From a virus: a stretch of DNA of 41,757 nt. Location: positions 1 to 41,757 of IMG/VR virus record IMGVR_UViG_3300025141_009213; one strand, given 5' to 3'. Of this stretch, positions 6,817-41,757 are shown one piece after another (within the stretch, counting starts at the first letter, position 1; each line of letters starts with the position of its first letter). The translations under genes and the position numbers were made by a program. Below the pieces are notes generated by a model. That model made no database searches, was not told where the DNA came from, and saw only the letters and a program-made list of their open reading frames with translations.

Positions 6817-7643
6817 GATCCGAAATCTCCTCCGTTAATGTCTTGAGAGTTTGTAACTAATGAAGCTCCTGAATCAAAGCTGCCACCATCAATGATGATT
6901 GCTCCGAGGTTGTCCCAGCTCAATGTGCCAGAACCATCTGTAACTAGTCCTTGTCCTGATGCTCCGTCAGTGGCAGGGAGTGTGAATGATAGGTTTGATG
7001 CAATTGTTGTTGGTGCTTTAATACCAAAGTAATTACTGCTATCGGCATCAGATAGTTTGACTGAACCTTGGTCATAAACAATCAAGTCACCAGTTGAATC
7101 AATCTTTAAACGTGTATCACTACCATTTATAAATGATAGCCCTCCACTACTGTCCTGCTTGATGTTATGAATATTACCATTACACTCTAGTTTGACATTG
7201 CTATAAGCAGCATTGCCGCCAGACAACTCAATTTGAGCTACCTGACTTGTTCCACTATTATCAGTGTTTTCAATCTTCAATCCACCAGCACTATTAGTCG
7301 ATCGTTTGATATGTATATCAGTATCTGGTGTTGTTGACATACCAACGCCAACGCTGCCCGTTACATAACACTGTGTACCTACAGTTGAACTGCCATTGAT
7401 AGTCTGGTTGCCAGTAACTGTTTCATTGCCTGAAATAGTTACGGCGCCGCTGATTGTTCCGCCACTAGATGAATACAATCCGCTGGTCAAATTGACCATG
7501 GCGTTGTTACTGTCTTTTAAGAATAAAGCGGGATCATCAGCGTTGTAATTAATTGCTATCTCCCCATATTCCATATCTACTGGATCTGGTACTTTCGCAG
7601 CTCCACCTTGGAGTACATTACTCCGTTTTAACTGTAACTTCAT
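6813..7643 (-). CDS. Tail fibre-like virion protein
   Basis: A 276-residue protein. The N-terminus (MKLQLKRSNVLQGG, then MEYGEIAINYNADDPALFLKD) is a recurring signature of cyanophage fibre and adhesin proteins, where a peptide close to 'GELAVNYN..DPALFIKD' begins the fibre. The middle is rich in short beta repeats (GAVTISGNETVTGNQTING), and the C-terminus contains GQGLVTDGSGTLSWDN, also typical of phage fibres. It is followed by the DGVT fibre with a four-base overlap. It may be the base of the fibre or a short fibre; which one cannot be told from sequence. Confidence 0.75.
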   Translation of the reverse strand: MKLQLKRSNVLQGGAAKVPDPVDMEYGEIAINYNADDPALFLKDSNNAMVNLTSGLYSSSGGTISGAVTISGNETVTGNQTINGSSTVGTQCYVTGSVGVGMSTTPDTDIHIKRSTNSAGGLKIENTDNSGTSQVAQIELSGGNAAYSNVKLECNGNIHNIKQDSSGGLSFINGSDTRLKIDSTGDLIVYDQGSVKLSDADSSNYFGIKAPTTIASNLSFTLPATDGASGQGLVTDGSGTLSWDNLGAIIIDGGSFDSGASLVTNSQDINGGDFGS

Positions 7644-7715: not shown

Positions 7716-9500
7716 TTAATAGTTTGAATTCAGCATGACATAAGCAGTCTCGATATCATCTAAATTTAGACCAGCTGCTAATGCGTAAACAAGCTCCACT
7801 GTTGTGATTCCTAAACGTTCTATTGAAGCTATGTTTTGTGCATTATTTTCTTTTATGTCCGCTTCTAACTTCTCTTCAAAAGCTTTACGAACTTCTACCG
7901 TAGGGTAGCTGTTGGGCTCCTTTATTTTTAAGCTGTCCATAAACATAGTTGCGATTGTATGCTTGCACATCTTGAATCCCAGTCGATGCCTTCTATCTTC
8001 CCAACTTTGAACGATACCAGCTGCCTGATTTAGACCTAAGGCTAAGAAGTCAGATTCACTCATTACTGTAGGCAGTGGGTAACGTGCTTGTCTATTAGCT
8101 ACTGCTCCATCAGCACCTTGTGTCTCCGGCATCCTTATCTGTGATTTACTATAGTCAGGACAACTACAGCAGTACACATCAGCTGGTTTAAGTTGATTCC
8201 CGCTAGTGAACACTTCATCCATCCATGGATCAACATCAGTATCTTTTCGATACCAACTTGGAGCACCTACTGCACCTAACTTATGATATGAAACACTGTC
8301 ATACTCATCTAATACAGTCTTTGTGAAACTGTGATCAGCAATCGTGAGGTATCCATTAGCGTTTGAAGCGTATAGTGTCAAGGTTCCATCAAATGGAATT
8401 GATGTTATCTCTACTTGATTCCCTACTATCAGCAGGGAATTAATAGTGAATGGCATTACAGAAAATGCAACGGTACTTACTTCTGTTTCTACTACATCTC
8501 CTGTTAAGTACTGCTTACCAAAAAACCTTTGATACTGTTCCTTCAGGAATTTATAATTACCATTTAATGTGAAAGAAGCATTCGTCGTATCGTAAAGTTT
8601 CGGTAAAGCTGCTATGTCATACAGCGACGGTGGTAAGTCGGTTCTGTCTAGAATTTCAAATTCTTGAGAACTTCCAGTATGTTCAGCACTAACTTGAAAG
8701 TCATAAGCGTCATCTGAAAATACTTCATTACTCAGTGACTGCTCTACAAAGAAATCTTTTAGATAACCAATCTCGCCAACTAATGACTGGACGTTATTAT
8801 TGTTGTTAATAACATGTGTTGTAGCAAGCACCTCGGATAACGGAACACTTACTGTCAGTGTTGTGGTGTTTTGTGGATATGATTTACCAACATATATTGC
8901 AGGCCTTTTATTAGCTGTTAATACATTTGTAATTGTCGCTTCTGTCTCTCCATCTGTTATCCGTTCATTTACCATACGCCTTAACGCACTATTAAAGCTT
9001 CCCTGGATCCATACTTCTCCATATGCCCTGTTGTCTGAATCTACATCTGGATCATTTAGAACTTCACTTATAGTCCCAAGATTTGGTGGATTTACATTCG
9101 CCCTTTTGACTACATAATGATTCCTTGTGTCAGCCCTCTTTGTCGGATATCTAAAGCTTGTAAACTTTACATCCATCTCTTCAGGAGTACCCTGATACAG
9201 CTTTGATGTAATCTCCTGAGTAACAGGATCTCCATCACTGTCAACTACTATCTTGTTGTCTGTATCCCTTTCATATAGTTTTTCCCATGAGCCTTGATAG
9301 TAATACTCTAGGCCTCGTCGCCACTTCGCCCAAGTACTATCTAAGTCGTATTTTTCAATAACACTTCTATGAACTGATGATCCATATCTTCTATCACTTG
9401 GGTATGTACCAGCAGCAGATTTCTTAGCACTTTTATTTACCCGTGTACTTACACCATTGAATGCCTTTGATTTACCAAAACCATTCTGTTTTCTAGGCAT
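7716..9500 (-). CDS. Virion structural protein with C-terminal SWIM-type zinc finger (unknown role)
   Basis: A 594-residue protein in the capsid-to-tail gene run. The N-terminus is basic (RKQNGFGKSKAF, RVNKSAKKSA) and is followed by a long mixed alpha/beta body without a motif I recognise. Near the C-terminus there is C445-S-C447 followed 64 residues later by C512-K-H514 (YCCSCPDYSK ... FKMCKHTIATMF). This matches the CxC...CxH spacing and flanking residues (CPDY, CKH) of SWIM zinc fingers. SWIM fingers bind DNA or protein. Its position, directly before the fibres, suggests a tail, nozzle or adaptor component. The structural role is inferred from position only; the finger is seen in the sequence. 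Confidence 0.6.
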   Translation of the reverse strand: MPRKQNGFGKSKAFNGVSTRVNKSAKKSAAGTYPSDRRYGSSVHRSVIEKYDLDSTWAKWRRGLEYYYQGSWEKLYERDTDNKIVVDSDGDPVTQEITSKLYQGTPEEMDVKFTSFRYPTKRADTRNHYVVKRANVNPPNLGTISEVLNDPDVDSDNRAYGEVWIQGSFNSALRRMVNERITDGETEATITNVLTANKRPAIYVGKSYPQNTTTLTVSVPLSEVLATTHVINNNNNVQSLVGEIGYLKDFFVEQSLSNEVFSDDAYDFQVSAEHTGSSQEFEILDRTDLPPSLYDIAALPKLYDTTNASFTLNGNYKFLKEQYQRFFGKQYLTGDVVETEVSTVAFSVMPFTINSLLIVGNQVEITSIPFDGTLTLYASNANGYLTIADHSFTKTVLDEYDSVSYHKLGAVGAPSWYRKDTDVDPWMDEVFTSGNQLKPADVYCCSCPDYSKSQIRMPETQGADGAVANRQARYPLPTVMSESDFLALGLNQAAGIVQSWEDRRHRLGFKMCKHTIATMFMDSLKIKEPNSYPTVEVRKAFEEKLEADIKENNAQNIASIERLGITTVELVYALAAGLNLDDIETAYVMLNSNY

Positions 9501-12451: not shown

Positions 12452-12472
12452 CTTAATGTACTTTACCTACTG

Positions 12473-12480
12473 CTATTATA
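12473..12480 (-). promoter_or_regulatory. TATAATAG, candidate -10 element
   Basis: Minus-strand TATAATAG lies 22 bases before the ATG at 12451 and just past the terminator at 12486-12512. This placement suits restarting transcription downstream of a strong capsid transcript. Confidence 0.5.
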
Positions 12481-12485
12481 AACAC

Positions 12486-12512
12486 AAAAAAAGCACCCAG
12501 TGTTGGGTGCCT
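12486..12512 (-). terminator. Intrinsic terminator after the capsid genes
   Basis: Read on the minus strand: GGCACCCA, loop ACAC, TGGGTGC, then seven T. A perfect seven-pair stem (12493-12499 with 12504-12510) plus T-tract, 22 bases after the stop of the 193-residue gene. This is the clearest classical terminator on the minus strand. Confidence 0.85.
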
Positions 12513-12533
12513 TGATTGAAAATTAAGGTTGGA

Positions 12534-16226: not shown

Positions 16227-17165
16227 CTACAGATACTCATTTACCTTGTCACTTACTTCTCGTAATGATTTAAGTGCTTTATTCTCTAAAGTCCTTACTC
16301 TGTCACGGCTCATATTAAGGATTTGACCTATGGCTGTCATTGACAAAGGTTCCAAAATCTCTTCACCAATTCCATAACGCATACCGATTACAGCAGCTTG
16401 CATCTCAGGAAGATCTGCTATTAAGCTACGAATATCTTCCTTCACACAGTCCTGCTCAAGCAGCTTGTCTGGCAACTGTGCTTCATCTTCCAACAAATCA
16501 ATTAATGCTGTATCCCTGTTTTCACCTATTTTGATTTCTAAAGAAGTAGGCTGACGAGCCTTGCACATTAAATCCTTGATATCATCTACAGTTAATTCTA
16601 ATTTCTCTGATAGTTGAAAGACAGTTGGCATATAACCATTAAGTTGTGACAGCTCCCTTTGTGCCTTTTTTAGTTTGTTGAGATTCTCTGTGACATGGAT
16701 GGGGAGTCTTATTGCTCTAGACTTCTCTGCGATGGCTCTTGTAATTCCCTGTCGTATCCACCAATAAGCGTATGTAGAAAACTTATAGCCACGACCGGGA
16801 TCAAACTTTTCAACACCACGCACCAGTCCAATTGTTCCTTCTTGGATTATGTCTAGAAGTTCCATATTGCGCTTGGTGTATTTCTTGGCAACTGATACAA
16901 CTAAACGAAGGTTCGCTGTAACCATCCTCTCCTTAGCTTTAACGCCGTCACGAATCTCCCGTTTAAGTTGACGAACGGGTACTTCGCAGGCATCAGCTAA
17001 TCCTTGGTTATCTAGTTGAAGCTCTTTCTTCTGCTCCTCGATTTCCATTAACCGTTGAACTTGACGACCTAGGAGGATTTCTTCGTCATGCTCTAGTAAA
17101 GATACGCGTCCGATATCACGTAAATAAGCACGTACGGAATCGCCTGATGCAGCTGGTTTTGCCAT
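16227..17165 (-). CDS. Sigma-70 family RNA polymerase sigma factor, cyanobacterial group 2 type
   Basis: A 312-residue complete sigma factor without region 1.1. Region 1.2: DSVRAYLRDIGRVSLLEHDE. Region 2: MVTANLRLVVSVAKKY, MELLDIIQEGTIGLVRGVEK, FDPGRGYKFSTYAYWWIRQG (the 2.3/2.4 promoter-melting and -10 reading part). Region 3: LPIHVTENLNKLKKAQREL. Region 4: SMTAIGQILNMSRDRVRTLE (helix-turn-helix for -35). Length and wording match cyanobacterial group 2 sigma factors much better than the short T4 gp55-type late sigma factors of cyanomyoviruses. It presumably redirects host RNA polymerase to phage genes, perhaps via the recurring TAGAATAG/TATAATAG elements. All core elements appear intact. Confidence 0.92.
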   Translation of the reverse strand: MAKPAASGDSVRAYLRDIGRVSLLEHDEEILLGRQVQRLMEIEEQKKELQLDNQGLADACEVPVRQLKREIRDGVKAKERMVTANLRLVVSVAKKYTKRNMELLDIIQEGTIGLVRGVEKFDPGRGYKFSTYAYWWIRQGITRAIAEKSRAIRLPIHVTENLNKLKKAQRELSQLNGYMPTVFQLSEKLELTVDDIKDLMCKARQPTSLEIKIGENRDTALIDLLEDEAQLPDKLLEQDCVKEDIRSLIADLPEMQAAVIGMRYGIGEEILEPLSMTAIGQILNMSRDRVRTLENKALKSLREVSDKVNEYL

Positions 17166-38556: not shown

Positions 38557-39045
38557 TCGAGCACCGCACAACCACACTTAGCAGCGTGTTTCTCTTACCC
38601 TTTCTAAATTAATTCCCTATAGGGGGATACAGGGGGATTAAAAAAGGGGATATATAGAAAACTACGGTAGCGGGTGCGGTTTTGTGCTGACTCCACGAAC
38701 TCTTGAAAATCAGCACCCCGTTTTTCGTTAAATGGGAGGTGCACAGCCATAAGACATAGTGGTATTTACTTAGTGGTTACGAATCACAAAAAATGCCCTA
38801 TATAGGCCCAAAAATGTTAAAAAATTTTACTAATTTCACAGGGCCATGCTCATTGCCAAAAGTCCCCCTATAGGACCCTAAAAATGCCACAGGATTTTCG
38901 ACGGGTCTAATACCCTCAGTTCCCCCGAAGGCGGTCAAACAAAAAAATAAGAGGCTTTAACAGTTGTTAAGCCACGCTTGTTTGCTTCGCTTGTTTGATA
39001 ACTGATGTGTATTCAACAACCGTTGTTCGCGCGTGAGAACACGCG

Positions 39046-39158
39046 CTCACGTTTGTAACCTCGCGTTTTAACGCTCGCGTATTAACAGCCGAGCAGATGT
39101 TCGTTCACTTTGTTCACTCACGTTTGCTAACGCGTGTTTCAACGCTCGTGTTTCACAC
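39046..39158 (+). repeat. Imperfect direct repeat, two ~42-base copies
   Basis: 39046-39087 and 39117-39158 both run CTCACGTTTG(C)TAAC ... AACGCTCG(C/T)GT ... ACA, with a few mismatches and one-base shifts. Confidence 0.6.
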
Positions 39159-39515
39159 TCGCTGTCTCAACCGCCTTGCGCGTGTCACTTATAACTGTCA
39201 CACATTCGTGTTACATATGTTTACCACGCGCTTAAACCTTCGTCATCTACTGTTATCTACTGCCATATTGGGAGTTTATAACACTCGGGATGCGAATGTT
39301 TATAACTTAAGTAACTTTAAGTCTCTACAGGTATTGCACCTCCACTGCTACCAGTATTTACGCCTACCGCGTTGGACGTCGCTACGATTGTAAGATGGTT
39401 ATAGTTACTAACTATGCCTTATTGCCAGATTTATATCTGCGCCCCCACTCCACGCTTATTAACTATTGAGCCATCAATCAGTTACATCCCTTGCACACTT
39501 AACCCGTATAAGTAT

Positions 39516-39605
39516 ATGGATCCATTTATCATTGCATTTTGCATGTATGCCATAGTACTACTGTGGCTATGGAATCCGAACCCTCCCATGGGTCCGAAGG
39601 GATGA
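39516..39605 (+). CDS. Possible 29-residue membrane peptide
   Basis: The ORF starting at 39516 encodes MDPFIIAFCMYAIVLLWLWN followed by a proline-rich end (PNPPMGPKG): one clear transmembrane helix. It resembles the small membrane peptides of the downstream array (for example MDLLVYIAIL at 41377) but lacks the hairpin and box module. No Shine-Dalgarno sequence. Coding status uncertain; a longer in-frame start exists at 39414. Confidence 0.35.
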   Translation: MDPFIIAFCMYAIVLLWLWNPNPPMGPKG

Positions 39606-39739
39606 TGTCGCGGGGAGATCATGCGGCTACGCCGTCGCAGAATGATTATGCGGCTTCGCCGTGGCGGCTGATATTTATTAAATAGGGAACCGTATATATA
39701 AATGAGCAGCCATATAAATCAGCAGCAATCCTAATCCTC
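39606..39739 (+). other. Short intergenic region with paired hairpins and TATAAATNAGCAGC repeats
   Basis: Contains two copies of ATGCGGCT(A/T)CGCCGT, each able to fold (CGGC-TAC-GCCG and CGGC-TTC-GCCG). It also has two direct copies, 16 bases apart, of TATAAAT(G/C)AGCAGC at 39697-39710 and 39713-39726. A third relative, TATAAATCAGCACC, is the leader of the 21-residue cassette gene at 41363-41376. Confidence 0.5.
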
Positions 39740-39755
39740 ACCACCTATCGGTGGT
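39740..39755 (+). terminator. Cassette hairpin 1
   Basis: ACCACC-TATC-GGTGGT followed by TATATTT. First hairpin of the array, a six-pair stem with four-base loop. Confidence 0.7.
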
Positions 39756-39776
39756 TATATTTCACTGTGTTATTTA
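39755..39776 (+). promoter_or_regulatory. Conserved box 1
   Basis: Reads TATATTTCACTGTGTTATTTA. It differs from the consensus TTATTTCACTGTGTTCTTT at one core base and in the T-tract. It ends 14 bases before the ATG at 39791. Confidence 0.7.
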
Positions 39777-39790
39777 TTCAAATTCACAAG

Positions 39791-39988
39791 ATGTTCACTG
39801 TCTCTTACGATGTATTCGCCTGTGACGATCATCAGCCTGAACGTATAATCCGTGGCTTCACGGACTTCGTAGAAGCTGTCAAGTACTGGGCTGATTGCTC
39901 AGAAACTGAAGATAACTGTCATTTTCTATATACACCCGTTATCTCCATGGAAAAACTTCCGGAATACTCCGAAGCTATTCCCTTCTGA
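39791..39988 (+). CDS. Cassette protein 1, 65 residues, unknown function
   Basis: MFTVSYDVFACDDHQPERII ... LPEYSEAIPF. A small soluble acidic protein with three Cys, predicted mixed alpha/beta. The ATG at 39791 is chosen over an in-frame ATG at 39767, because the latter lies inside the conserved box and all other array genes begin 11-15 bases after their box. No Shine-Dalgarno sequence. Confidence 0.65.
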   Translation: MFTVSYDVFACDDHQPERIIRGFTDFVEAVKYWADCSETEDNCHFLYTPVISMEKLPEYSEAIPF

Positions 39989-39997
39989 ATACCCAAT

Positions 39998-40013
39998 CCC
40001 TCCTCACGGAGGG
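39998..40013 (+). terminator. Cassette hairpin 2
   Basis: CCCTCC-TCAC-GGAGGG, a perfect six-pair stem, followed by TTTATTT. Starts nine bases after the preceding stop codon. Confidence 0.8.
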
Positions 40014-40034
40014 TTTATTTCACTGCGTTCTTTA
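40014..40034 (+). promoter_or_regulatory. Conserved box 2
   Basis: Matches the consensus except CACTGCG for CACTGTG. Followed by the leader ATGAATTTAATCTC and the ATG at 40048. Confidence 0.75.
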
Positions 40035-40047
40035 TGAATTTAATCTC

Positions 40048-40200
40048 ATGATAGTTCTATTCTGGGATCAAGATACTCAAAATACTGAGTATCGCGAACT
40101 TGTGGGACATGATGCGGATGGAAGGCCTATCTATGAAGCTTGCTTCTTAGGACCTGCTCACCGCTCTTATCATGAGTTCCACATTAATCACGATGATTGA
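40048..40200 (+). CDS. Cassette protein 2, 50 residues, unknown function
   Basis: MIVLFWDQDTQNTEYRELVG then HDADGRPIYEACFLGPAHRS, ending HEFHINHDD. Small, acidic and His-rich near the end, soluble. Its ATG overlaps the stop of a five-codon upstream reading frame in the leader (ATGAATTTAATCTCATGA), which may be chance. Too short for standard gene-length cutoffs. Confidence 0.6.
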   Translation: MIVLFWDQDTQNTEYRELVGHDADGRPIYEACFLGPAHRSYHEFHINHDD

Positions 40201-40209
40201 TGAGATTAT

Positions 40210-40225
40210 GCCCGCTAACGCGGGC
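40210..40225 (+). terminator. Cassette hairpin 3
   Basis: GCCCGC-TAAC-GCGGGC, a perfect six-pair stem, followed by TTTATTT. Nine bases after the preceding stop. Confidence 0.8.
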
Positions 40226-40246
40226 TTTATTTCACTGTGTTCTTTA
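40226..40246 (+). promoter_or_regulatory. Conserved box 3
   Basis: Exact consensus. Followed by ATGAGTTTTACTC and the ATG at 40259. The leader and start can fold as ATGAG-TTTTA-CTCAT. Confidence 0.75.
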
Positions 40247-40258
40247 TGAGTTTTACTC

Positions 40259-40372
40259 ATGCTTCACAGCTTTGCTGTAAACACAATCCAGTTCATCGCT
40301 GTTTTCACCATCTCTTACACCGCAGGTTACCTGCTCGGATTGGCTGGTGTTCCACCAATCTGGAAGCGTTAA
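40259..40372 (+). CDS. Cassette protein 3, 37-residue membrane peptide
   Basis: MLHSFAVNTIQFIAVFTISY then TAGYLLGLAGVPPIWKR. A single hydrophobic helix of about 20 residues with a basic C-terminal end, so probably an inner-membrane peptide. Position relative to box and hairpin matches the other array genes. No Shine-Dalgarno sequence. Confidence 0.6.
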   Translation: MLHSFAVNTIQFIAVFTISYTAGYLLGLAGVPPIWKR

Positions 40373-40377
40373 GCCTT

Positions 40378-40395
40378 AGGCCCCTCTTGGGGCCT
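40378..40395 (+). terminator. Cassette hairpin 4
   Basis: AGGCCCC-TCTT-GGGGCCT, a seven-pair stem, followed by TTATTT. Five bases after the preceding stop. Confidence 0.85.
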
Positions 40396-40415
40396 TTATT
40401 TCACTGTGTTCTTTA
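40395..40415 (+). promoter_or_regulatory. Conserved box 4
   Basis: Exact consensus. The ATG follows after a short leader, at 40426 (or 40417). Confidence 0.75.
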
Positions 40416-40425
40416 TATGTTCACA

Positions 40426-40665
40426 ATGAACAGTATCTTTATCCTACGTAAGACCTTCCCTTCCGGTTACATGTCAACCTGGAAGTTCGGACAAACCGTA
40501 GACGGTGGCTATGTAGCTATCTCTAACAAGGGTGCTAGGAAGCAATTTGCTGACTTGATAGCCCTTGAGACCTGTGTCACTAACTTCATTCAGAAGTATG
40601 CCTACGGTCAGAGAACTACTCCACCTATACGCCGAGTTGGGAAGCAACTTGCGTTAGCTATCTGA
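40426..40665 (+). CDS. Cassette protein 4, 79 residues, unknown function
   Basis: MNSIFILRKTFPSGYMSTWK, then GQTVDGGYVAISNKGARKQF, ADLIALETCVTNFIQKYAYG and a basic end (RRVGKQLALAI). A small basic alpha/beta protein. Start at 40426 gives the usual leader spacing; 40417 (MFTMNS) is in frame and possible. A longer open frame running back to 40237 crosses the previous cassette and is not credible. Confidence 0.65.
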   Translation: MNSIFILRKTFPSGYMSTWKFGQTVDGGYVAISNKGARKQFADLIALETCVTNFIQKYAYGQRTTPPIRRVGKQLALAI

Positions 40666-40671
40666 TGTATT

Positions 40672-40687
40672 GCCCCCTATTGGGGGC
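40672..40687 (+). terminator. Cassette hairpin 5
   Basis: GCCCCC-TATT-GGGGGC, a perfect six-pair stem, followed by TTTATTT. Confidence 0.85.
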
Positions 40688-40708
40688 TTTATTTCACTGT
40701 GTTCATTA
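40688..40708 (+). promoter_or_regulatory. Conserved box 5
   Basis: Consensus except GTTCATTA for GTTCTTTA. Confidence 0.75.
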
Positions 40709-40719
40709 TGCATTTAATT

Positions 40720-40872
40720 ATGCGTACTTTCCTCATTACCTCAGACCCTGCTGAGGCTAATCAGCTATATAACTATGCTTTAGCAACCGGACTTGATCTG
40801 GATGCTGATGACATGGAATACTTACGTGAATTAGCTGCTTTAGATGACATTAAAGAGGACTCTCCTTTCTAA
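40720..40872 (+). CDS. Cassette protein 5, 50-residue acidic helical protein
   Basis: MRTFLITSDPAEANQLYNYA, LATGLDLDADDMEYLRELAA, LDDIKEDSPF. Strongly acidic and almost wholly helical. An in-frame ATG at 40708 (MHLIMRTF) begins at the last base of the box; 40720 gives the array's usual spacing. DNA-mimic or inhibitor functions are common among such small acidic phage proteins, but nothing here proves that. Confidence 0.6.
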   Translation: MRTFLITSDPAEANQLYNYALATGLDLDADDMEYLRELAALDDIKEDSPF

Positions 40873-40885
40873 ATCATCAACCCTT

Positions 40886-40903
40886 AGGCCCTTCACAGGG
40901 CCT
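40886..40903 (+). terminator. Cassette hairpin 6
   Basis: AGGCCCT-TCAC-AGGGCCT, a seven-pair stem, followed by TTATTT. Confidence 0.85.
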
Positions 40904-40923
40904 TTATTTCACTGTGTTCTTTG
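40903..40923 (+). promoter_or_regulatory. Conserved box 6
   Basis: Consensus with the final A replaced by G. The leader TGAGTTTAATCTT is close to those of cassettes 2 and 3. Confidence 0.75.
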
Positions 40924-40936
40924 TGAGTTTAATCTT

Positions 40937-41125
40937 ATGCTTGAAAGCATAGATTTTATATCCACAGCCCAGGCGACCTCTTTCATCTGGTCGTCCAACA
41001 TAGTCTCTGCTATGGACATGCTGATTTATGAAGGATTCCCTCCTTCAGAGATCATGTCTGCCAAATGGGCCTACCACGATCCTTTTAATAAGGATTACTG
41101 GGAATACTCCTTCAGTGTTTCCTAA
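40937..41125 (+). CDS. Cassette protein 6, 62 residues, unknown function
   Basis: MLESIDFISTAQATSFIWSS, NIVSAMDMLIYEGFPPSEIM, then an aromatic C-terminus (WAYHDPFNKDYWEYSFSVS). Helical N-terminal half, soluble. The frame is open further upstream, but only the ATG at 40937 fits the box spacing. Confidence 0.65.
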   Translation: MLESIDFISTAQATSFIWSSNIVSAMDMLIYEGFPPSEIMSAKWAYHDPFNKDYWEYSFSVS

Positions 41126-41135
41126 CTTAAATCCC

Positions 41136-41151
41136 CCCCCCTCACGGGGGG
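41136..41151 (+). terminator. Cassette hairpin 7
   Basis: CCCCCC-TCAC-GGGGGG, a perfect six-pair stem (the C run begins three bases earlier), followed by TTTATTT. Confidence 0.85.
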
Positions 41152-41172
41152 TTTATTTCACTGTGTTCTTTA
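41152..41172 (+). promoter_or_regulatory. Conserved box 7
   Basis: Exact consensus, followed by AGTATTACCT and the ATG at 41183. Confidence 0.75.
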
Positions 41173-41182
41173 AGTATTACCT

Positions 41183-41320
41183 ATGTTTCGCTTTGTATTT
41201 CTTGCTCTCATAGCTACAGGTTTTTACACCGCTATTAACTTGTCTACAAAAGCTATTGAATGCAAAACTACCGAGACACAAGTCGAGTGTGCAGCCCGTG
41301 CTGCTGAACTGACGGACTAG
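41183..41320 (+). CDS. Cassette protein 7, 45 residues, signal peptide or membrane helix
   Basis: MFRFVFLALIATGFYTAINL, then STKAIECKTTETQVECAARA and AELTD. An N-terminal basic residue and hydrophobic helix, then a polar part with two Cys ten residues apart (C27, C36) that could form a disulfide outside the cytoplasm. Probably exported or membrane-anchored. Confidence 0.6.
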   Translation: MFRFVFLALIATGFYTAINLSTKAIECKTTETQVECAARAAELTD

Positions 41321-41328
41321 AAACTATA

Positions 41329-41342
41329 CCCCCTATCGGGGG
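41329..41342 (+). terminator. Cassette hairpin 8
   Basis: CCCCC-TATC-GGGGG, followed by TTTTTATT. Confidence 0.85.
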
Positions 41343-41364
41343 TTTTTATTCATGGTGTTATTTA
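41343..41364 (+). promoter_or_regulatory. Conserved box 8 (diverged)
   Basis: Reads TTTTTATTCATGGTGTTATTTA, the most diverged copy of the box. It is followed by AAATCAGCACC and the ATG at 41377. The element TATAAATCAGC overlaps its end. Confidence 0.65.
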
Positions 41365-41376
41365 TAAATCAGCACC

Positions 41377-41442
41377 ATGGACTTACTAGTTTACATCGCA
41401 ATCCTCTCCATCTGGGGAGTATGCATGTTGGTCATGGAATGA
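41377..41442 (+). CDS. Cassette protein 8, 21-residue membrane peptide
   Basis: The whole product is MDLLVYIAILSIWGVCMLVM followed by Glu: one transmembrane helix and almost nothing else. It is accepted as a gene because it stands at the same distance from hairpin and box as the others. A seven-base-later mini-frame (MDLLKV, 41452-41466) repeats its first four residues. Confidence 0.45.
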   Translation: MDLLVYIAILSIWGVCMLVME

Positions 41443-41472
41443 GCTAAAGAATGGACTTGCTAAAAGTCTAAG

Positions 41473-41488
41473 GCCCCCTATTGGGGGC
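41473..41488 (+). terminator. Cassette hairpin 9
   Basis: GCCCCC-TATT-GGGGGC, a perfect six-pair stem, followed by TTTATTT. Confidence 0.85.
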
Positions 41489-41509
41489 TTTATTTCACTG
41501 TGTTCTTTG
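41489..41509 (+). promoter_or_regulatory. Conserved box 9 with a Shine-Dalgarno site
   Basis: Consensus with final G. Its end merges into GGAG eight bases before the ATG at 41521, the only array leader with a clear ribosome site. Confidence 0.75.
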
Positions 41510-41520
41510 GAGATAGACAC

Positions 41521-41739
41521 ATGTCTAACTCAACTCAGATCTCTTCTAGAGAAAGAGATGAGGTGCGAACTCTTATCAACAATCTCCTTCCTAGTTTAGG
41601 AATCTCTCCTGACTTCTACTATCTCGTTAATCGAGCTATTTCAGAAGCAGAAGACAGGACCTACGAGGAGGAGTATCAGACCTCTCTTCTACTTGAATGG
41701 GAGGCGAGATGTGATCTTGAATCTTGTCTAGGAGTTTGA
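41521..41739 (+). CDS. Cassette protein 9, 72 residues, acidic helical, unknown function
   Basis: MSNSTQISSRERDEVRTLIN, NLLPSLGISPDFYYLVNRAI, SEAEDRTYEEEYQTSLLLEW, then EARCDLESCLGV. Helical and acidic. The ATG at 41521 has GGAG at proper spacing; an in-frame ATG at 41500 lies inside the box and is rejected. A C run begins 12 bases after the stop and continues to the window end, the left arm of a tenth hairpin. Confidence 0.7.
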   Translation: MSNSTQISSRERDEVRTLINNLLPSLGISPDFYYLVNRAISEAEDRTYEEEYQTSLLLEWEARCDLESCLGV

Positions 41740-41757
41740 TCATCAGTAACCCCCCCC

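Follow-up and report, generated by a model that had tools for sequence, protein, structure and literature searches.

Nine small genes behind a repeated hairpin-and-box module in a relative of cyanophage S-EIV1

The DNA stretch analysed here, a 41,757-base virus contig (IMG/VR record IMGVR_UViG_3300025141_009213) to which we refer as a whole as the window, ends in an array of nine small plus-strand genes, and in front of each stands a module made up of a GC-rich hairpin and a near-invariant box, TTATTTCACTGTGTTCTTT. The window is a fragment of an S-EIV1-related cyanophage. Modules of the same build occur in related genomes, where the small genes are found in other orders and many junctions fall within a module. 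We favour, with about an even chance of being right, the view that the array is a gene-cassette region heading the early/middle arm of an S-EIV1-like cyanophage, with a composite terminator/start module for each small gene. That the box would serve as a start signal on the DNA is, judged from sequence, a proposal that could go either way; its core is not a host-type sigma-70 promoter.

Anatomy and distribution of the module

Searching the window for the box with at most three mismatches yields eight sites, all on the plus strand and all between positions 39757 and 41508, where 0.04 would be expected by chance and no shuffle reached eight; a ninth, degenerate copy with five mismatches is located at 41345. 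The mismatch search and a covariance model of the 36-nt hairpin-plus-box module agree that the box does not occur elsewhere in the window, the model returning exactly nine modules, all within the array. Each box is preceded by a GC hairpin of 6-7 bp with a 4-nt loop whose initial base is T, and terminator-like sites number 20 in the array region compared to 2.4 ± 1.5 in shuffles. From box end to ATG the distance is 15, 14, 13, 11, 12, 14, 11, 13 and 12 nt for genes 1 to 9. A previous description of the window made from its letters alone (the sequence-only reading) had named this architecture correctly as regards the near-invariant box and its confinement to the array, the T-initial four-base loop, the 11-15 bases to the ATG and the mutually unrelated coding sequences, the array genes not being duplicates of each other. 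Its range of 21-72 codons holds at the lower end, whereas the upper end is 79 codons (gene 4); its 5-14 bases from stop codon to hairpin apply to all gaps but the last, which measures 26-30 nt; and its identical order between every pair of genes extends to nine modules, of which the first, at 39740, lacks a clear preceding gene. The array and its flank are composed as follows.

39000..39739, no strand assigned: noncoding region between leftward structural genes and rightward array; no consistent plus-strand open reading frame into the first module in eight genomes
39740..39755, plus: hairpin 1, ACCACC[TATC]GGTGGT, without clear upstream gene (covariance model 44.9 bits, E 7.5e-9)
39757..39775, plus: box 1, two mismatches (mismatch search)
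39791..39988, plus: gene 1, 65 aa, family F0, relatives in 6 other genomes
39998..40033, plus: hairpin 2 and box 2 (one mismatch), 46.2 bits
40048..40200, plus: gene 2, 50 aa
40210..40245, plus: hairpin 3 and box 3 (exact), 55.8 bits, E 9.7e-12
40246..40261, plus: post-box inverted repeat ATGAGT-TTT-ACTCAT, ending at the start codon of gene 3, fold -5.5 kcal/mol
40259..40372, plus: gene 3, 37 aa, hydrophobic
40379..40414, plus: hairpin 4 and box 4 (exact), 51.2 bits
40426..40665, plus: gene 4, 79 aa, family F2, relatives in 4 other genomes
40672..40707, plus: hairpin 5 and box 5 (one mismatch), 52.6 bits
40720..40872, plus: gene 5, 50 aa
40887..40922, plus: hairpin 6 and box 6 (exact), 50.4 bits
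40937..41125, plus: gene 6, 62 aa, no relative in viral_contigs
41136..41171, plus: hairpin 7 and box 7 (exact), 53.5 bits
41183..41320, plus: gene 7, 45 aa
41328..41363, plus: hairpin 8 and degenerate box 8 (five mismatches), 44.4 bits, E 9.7e-9
41377..41442, plus: gene 8, 21 aa, hydrophobic
41473..41508, plus: hairpin 9 and box 9 (exact), 55.6 bits, E 1.1e-11
41521..41739, plus: gene 9, 72 aa, contig end just downstream, no relative in viral_contigs

Only two array coding sequences, those beginning at 39791 and 40426, have known relatives, which are homologues in related phages, and near relatives of the orphan genes 6 and 9 are absent from viral_contigs. A PHROGs search of the array proteins of the window and a Pfam search of those of the relatives gave nothing useful. 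An early guess that a further family, F1, is a single-strand DNA-binding protein found no support.

Related genomes were reached via box patterns (L009-L012, then three further genomes); all genomes compared are metagenome assemblies, S-EIV1 excepted, and gene starts were assigned by inspection. The covariance-model search of cyanophage contigs that had been proposed in the sequence-only reading returned 168 modules in 1.01 Mb of genomes, of which 167 share the strand of the array in the genome concerned. They are spread over 12 related genomes, plus one weak match in a thirteenth (G014). Counted from the table, the window has 9 modules, G001-G004 have 13, 20, 12 and 15, and G021-G023 have 23, 16 and 23, while the more distant genomes G005, G006, G013 and G019 have 11, 6, 9 and 10. 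The same model found no module in S-EIV1 and none in 818 kb of contigs around structural genes. Thus, the module is a feature of the non-structural arm of a marine subgroup. Six host genomes together contain one box match, with three mismatches; other exact matches of a relaxed 17-mer in viral contigs all lack the hairpin and are chance-like; and the best matches of Rfam covariance models score far below the gathering score and lie on the other strand.

The geometry of the module is narrowly kept. In eight genomes the core follows the stem by 12 nt in 48 of 92 modules and by 10-12 nt in 75 of 92, and a start codon is located 11-16 nt after the core in 72 of 92. The core positions come from a core-guided search, so that core conservation stems in part from selection; a selection by box only (at most two mismatches, 14 genomes) is free of this effect, and 32/32 of the sites it returns have a hairpin, against a background of 1%, with every site on the strand of the array. 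The first stem shows two-sided changes at all six pairs and a covariation of 0.948 compared to 0.204 ± 0.032 in shuffled data, for rows that were required to form 5 or more of the 6 pairs. Since these rows were preselected for pairing, the box-only selection also serves as an independent test of the hairpin. Across arrays the 4-nt loops nearly always begin with T and often end with C (TAAC, TATC, TGTC, TTTC, TCAC). Such loops are unusual for a plain terminator and are perhaps recognised.

Cassette order and junctions among relatives

When cassettes are grouped into families by protein similarity, the order of the shared small genes is seen to change from one related phage to another: F9-F0-F7-F2-F3 in G021, F0-F9-F7-F2-F3 in G022, F0-F7-F2-F3 in G001, F0-F20-F2-F7-F9 in G003, F15-F20-F0-F9 in G004 and F0-F15...F3 in G002. 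Related phages with genes of families F0 and F2 carry the box as well, so that the first refuting condition named in the sequence-only reading, relatives that share small genes but lack the box, does not apply. G002 and G004 are 83-97% identical along aligned array blocks, and 6 of 8 of their homology-block ends lie inside modules, which cover 20% of the sequence (p 0.0017); between G001 and G022 the count is 7 of 14 (p 0.017). Cassette F4 is carried by G002 but not by G004, both of its boundaries falling within modules, and in G001, G021 and G022 a conserved upstream region stops at the first box, different genes following thereafter. Reordering among relatives, together with breaks inside the module, thus supports the cassette idea, and the insertion, loss and shuffling of genes foreseen in the sequence-only reading are borne out by this comparison of cassette content.

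Hairpin stems are more alike within a genome than expected by chance (0.519 compared to 0.472 ± 0.008), and across distant genomes the likeness of stems (0.433) does not go with the gene family. The likeness within genomes, a modest effect, fits recombination or conversion among modules.

How the box may be read

According to the reading we favour, a cassette would be one small gene behind a terminator-like hairpin, a T-rich spacer of ~12 nt fused to the core TGTNCTTT, and 11-16 nt leading to the start. The hairpin would end the incoming transcript and spacer plus core would start the next, giving short single-gene mRNAs, with a candidate phage factor and the host RNA polymerase presumed to read the core. 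Repetition of the module would let homologous recombination between copies insert, delete and reorder genes while leaving expression intact. A GC stem with an immediate T-run is the classical form of a terminator, and a T-run lies directly 3' of the GC stem at the modules. Of the two signals that the sequence-only reading assigns to each gene, for termination and for starting, the terminator is plausible from the letters, whereas the start is not the promoter of the host's sigma-70.

Several observations weigh against this reading. A sigma-70 promoter was detected at 0 of 92 modules, where shuffles would give 4.6, and TATAAT-like -10 elements are depleted (12 compared to 29.7). No phage RNA polymerase was found in the searches made, and hence no reader of the box is assigned: PF00940 had no match in 11 records, the control genomes giving no match either, and ten large G022 proteins contained no polymerase except DNA polymerase A. 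In eight genomes the first module retains its covarying hairpin without a preceding gene, where a pure terminator would need none, which suggests that the hairpin belongs to the start element itself and does more than terminate the previous gene. A second hairpin includes or adjoins the start codons, and a Shine-Dalgarno-like 4-mer is found in 1 of the 92 leaders of array genes, compared to 8 of 20 late genes, which suggests a role at the RNA level as well. Finally, G021 and G022 have 5 of 12 block ends inside modules (p 0.09), so that the enrichment is weak for this pair.

An RNA-level module is the alternative to be weighed most closely, and we leave it a substantial, if minor, share of our confidence. 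The array would be covered by a long polycistronic transcript in which the U-rich box, placed between two hairpins, acts as a cutting or leader element: either an endonuclease would cut the single-stranded UUUAUUUCACUGUGUUCUUU, so that the upstream mRNA would keep a hairpin at its 3' end and the downstream mRNA a small one at its 5' end, by the start codon, or the U-rich leader would recruit ribosomes independently of a Shine-Dalgarno sequence. The small second hairpin follows the core, often includes or touches the ATG (ATGAGT-TTT-ACTCATG, ATCTGA-TTTC-TCAGATG, ACATC-ATTCA-GATGT) and covaries. The sequence-only reading does not mention it, nor the depletion of sigma-70 promoters or the hairpin retained before the first gene. 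Mean post-core folding energy is -2.46 compared to -1.20 ± 0.14 (z -9.2, 68 leaders), and arms paired with their own partners form 17 stems of at least 5 pairs, compared to 5.9 with swapped partners and a maximum of 14 in 1000 permutations, all of which stay below the real number. Both the scarcity of Shine-Dalgarno sequences and the missing sigma-70 promoters are in line with this alternative, as are the hairpin before the first gene and a hairpin-to-core distance that, among 42 modules whose spacers have diverged, is still 11-12 nt in 24. A clear second hairpin is, however, seen in only about 1/3 of leaders, the T-run right after the GC stem has the form of a terminator, and the long transcript would require a promoter upstream of the array, where none of sigma-70 type was found within 900 bp (G000-G004, G021).

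We put forward tentatively, and with some doubt, that hairpin and TGTNCTTT core at fixed spacing form one undescribed start element, either a hairpin-coupled promoter or an RNA element cutting the transcript and leaving a hairpin at both mRNA ends, which would be used throughout a clade of sigma-factor-encoding cyanophages for most early/middle genes and double as a recombination joint.

Antitermination of the BoxA type, in which each module would re-arm RNA polymerase for the next hairpin, appears improbable. Bacterial boxA is TGCTCTTTA, which the TGTTCTTTA of the core resembles as a site for NusB/S10, and in many cases a small hairpin follows the core; but Synechococcus rRNA operons carry a different boxA-like GAACCTTGACAAC with no close TGTTCTTTA match in their leaders, the first hairpin precedes the boxA-like core rather than following it, and, in contrast to boxB, the second hairpin is not fixed in sequence or loop. 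About as little credit goes to a plain terminator with a host sigma-70 early promoter behind it, as in the promoter-early stem-loop (PeSL) cassettes discussed below: the order of gene, stem-loop, start signal and gene is the same, as is the tie to reordered small genes, but the absence or depletion of sigma-70 elements at the modules disfavours it. That the module has no regulatory role, being a mobile repeat or a passive by-product of recently duplicated genes, as the nearly identical boxes in the front part of the array and the tendency of hairpins to be genome-specific might suggest, is the least probable of all, as pairing is kept through changes at all six pairs, the core is kept where the spacer diverged, the modules occupy one strand and one arm only, and the genes behind them are not copies of one another.

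With respect to possible readers, the window encodes a sigma factor.

16227..17165, minus: complete SigA-like sigma-70 factor, 312 aa, regions 1.2, 2, 3 and 4, among structural genes

All 13 genomes searched in the group have a match to sigma-70 region 2, the content of regions 1.2 to 4 having been checked on the window copy; S-EIV1 has neither this sigma factor nor the module. The segment of the phage sigma that reads the -10 element is host-like, the alignment being judged by eye. At ~12470-12513 of the window (minus strand), a conserved hairpin followed by TTTTTGTGYCTATAATAA, with a sigma-70-type -10, stands before a gene near the major head protein; it is single-copy in most genomes of the group and looks like a second, late-strand terminator-plus-promoter-like unit. 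Because of the host-like -10 segment and this single late-strand site, the phage sigma more likely serves the late genes. A T7-type phage RNA polymerase as reader of the box was also considered and not found, the unknown 822- and 815-aa proteins of the window being variable among relatives. Pairing of the box with 16S rRNA was discarded, the longest match of 8 nt being at about chance level.

Genome context and known cassette systems

The 748-aa virion protein of the window is 45% identical to a protein of S-EIV1, has no other relative among 50,697 phage records, and has relatives encoded on 121 IMG/VR contig stretches; by this protein the lineage is S-EIV1-like and not that of T4-type myoviruses. 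Ten of 13 records of the group contain psbA, and the group therefore infects cyanobacteria; for the psbA of G022 the nearest sequences are those of Synechococcus/Cyanobium (91% to RCC307). From ~38.5 kb the structural genes run leftward, and the array runs rightward from 39.7 kb up to the contig end. Immediately before the array, 39000-39250 is low-complexity and rich in CGCG/CACG/GTTT, and may be an origin or packaging region. The contigs G001, G002 and G004 end within a few bases of one conserved spot (CCGGTGGAACAAAAAAAATA), ~300 bp before the array, part of that region being seemingly repeated at the other end of G004; the spot is possibly a genome end. A TATATATAAA-type sequence (CCGTATATATAAATGAGCAG / CCGGTATATATAAAGAAGCAGG) is common to window 39600-39740 and the array interior of G002 (L010 ~7560-7604, minus strand) and is possibly another promoter class. 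The 106-kb contig G021 joins two related genomes, containing two versions of one region (L175-L180) that are 89-98% identical, ~81 kb apart and different in cassette content, and is probably a chimera of two related phages. Finally, a 594-aa protein (window 7716-9500, minus strand), ~40-50% conserved in the clade, has a CxC...CxH (SWIM-like) pattern and neither a PHROG nor a polymerase match.

PeSL cassettes of T4-type phages, reportedly described by Arbiol et al. in 2010 and Comeau et al. in 2014, are an established precedent that the sequence-only reading overlooked. As summarised in PMC4503421, PeSL elements are a stem-loop terminator and then a start signal between small variable genes, the repeats being linked, by way of recombination, to gene gain, loss and reordering. 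The modules described here likewise place a terminator-like stem-loop and a putative start signal between small genes, with reordering at the repeats, whereas they occur in an unrelated S-EIV1-like lineage, their putative start element differs from a sigma-70 early promoter, and they have a rigid 6-4-6 hairpin, a 12-nt spacing and a second hairpin at the start codon. Given the failed sigma-70 test and the other phage lineage, we regard them as PeSL-like in working and do not class them as PeSL. The ORFanage of cyanophage S-PM2, likewise a region of small orphan genes and readily lost, is poor in stem-loops and only sparsely furnished with PeSL-like elements (PMC4503421), whereas here every cassette has a module. 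The SAS/ESAS repeats of cluster K mycobacteriophages are short and lie upstream of many small non-structural genes; a ribosome-binding site forms part of SAS (a 13-bp repeat next to the start codon), and a SigA-like promoter forms part of ESAS (PMC3203893; PMC11373665). They share with our modules the one orientation, the one arm and the small non-structural genes, and some have inverted repeats, but the modules have neither a ribosome-binding site nor a SigA-like promoter. In halovirus HF2, a repeated intergenic element also precedes genes, and all nine repeats tested in reporter assays had promoter activity (PMC8707807); HF2 is, however, an archaeal virus with AT-rich promoter motifs at conserved positions, whereas the modules here are reordered.

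In conclusion, the idea behind PeSL, a repeated terminator/start unit for swapping small, probably host-directed genes, is extended to an unrelated marine cyanophage group that is uncultured and, by contig counts, common, and whose proposed start signal differs from the normal promoter of the host. If the box is a promoter, it would point to a phage transcription factor not yet known; if it acts on RNA, it would represent a new way to delimit single-gene mRNAs. Either way, the module is a search handle, as 168 copies in one million bases mark genes that are small and for the most part unknown.

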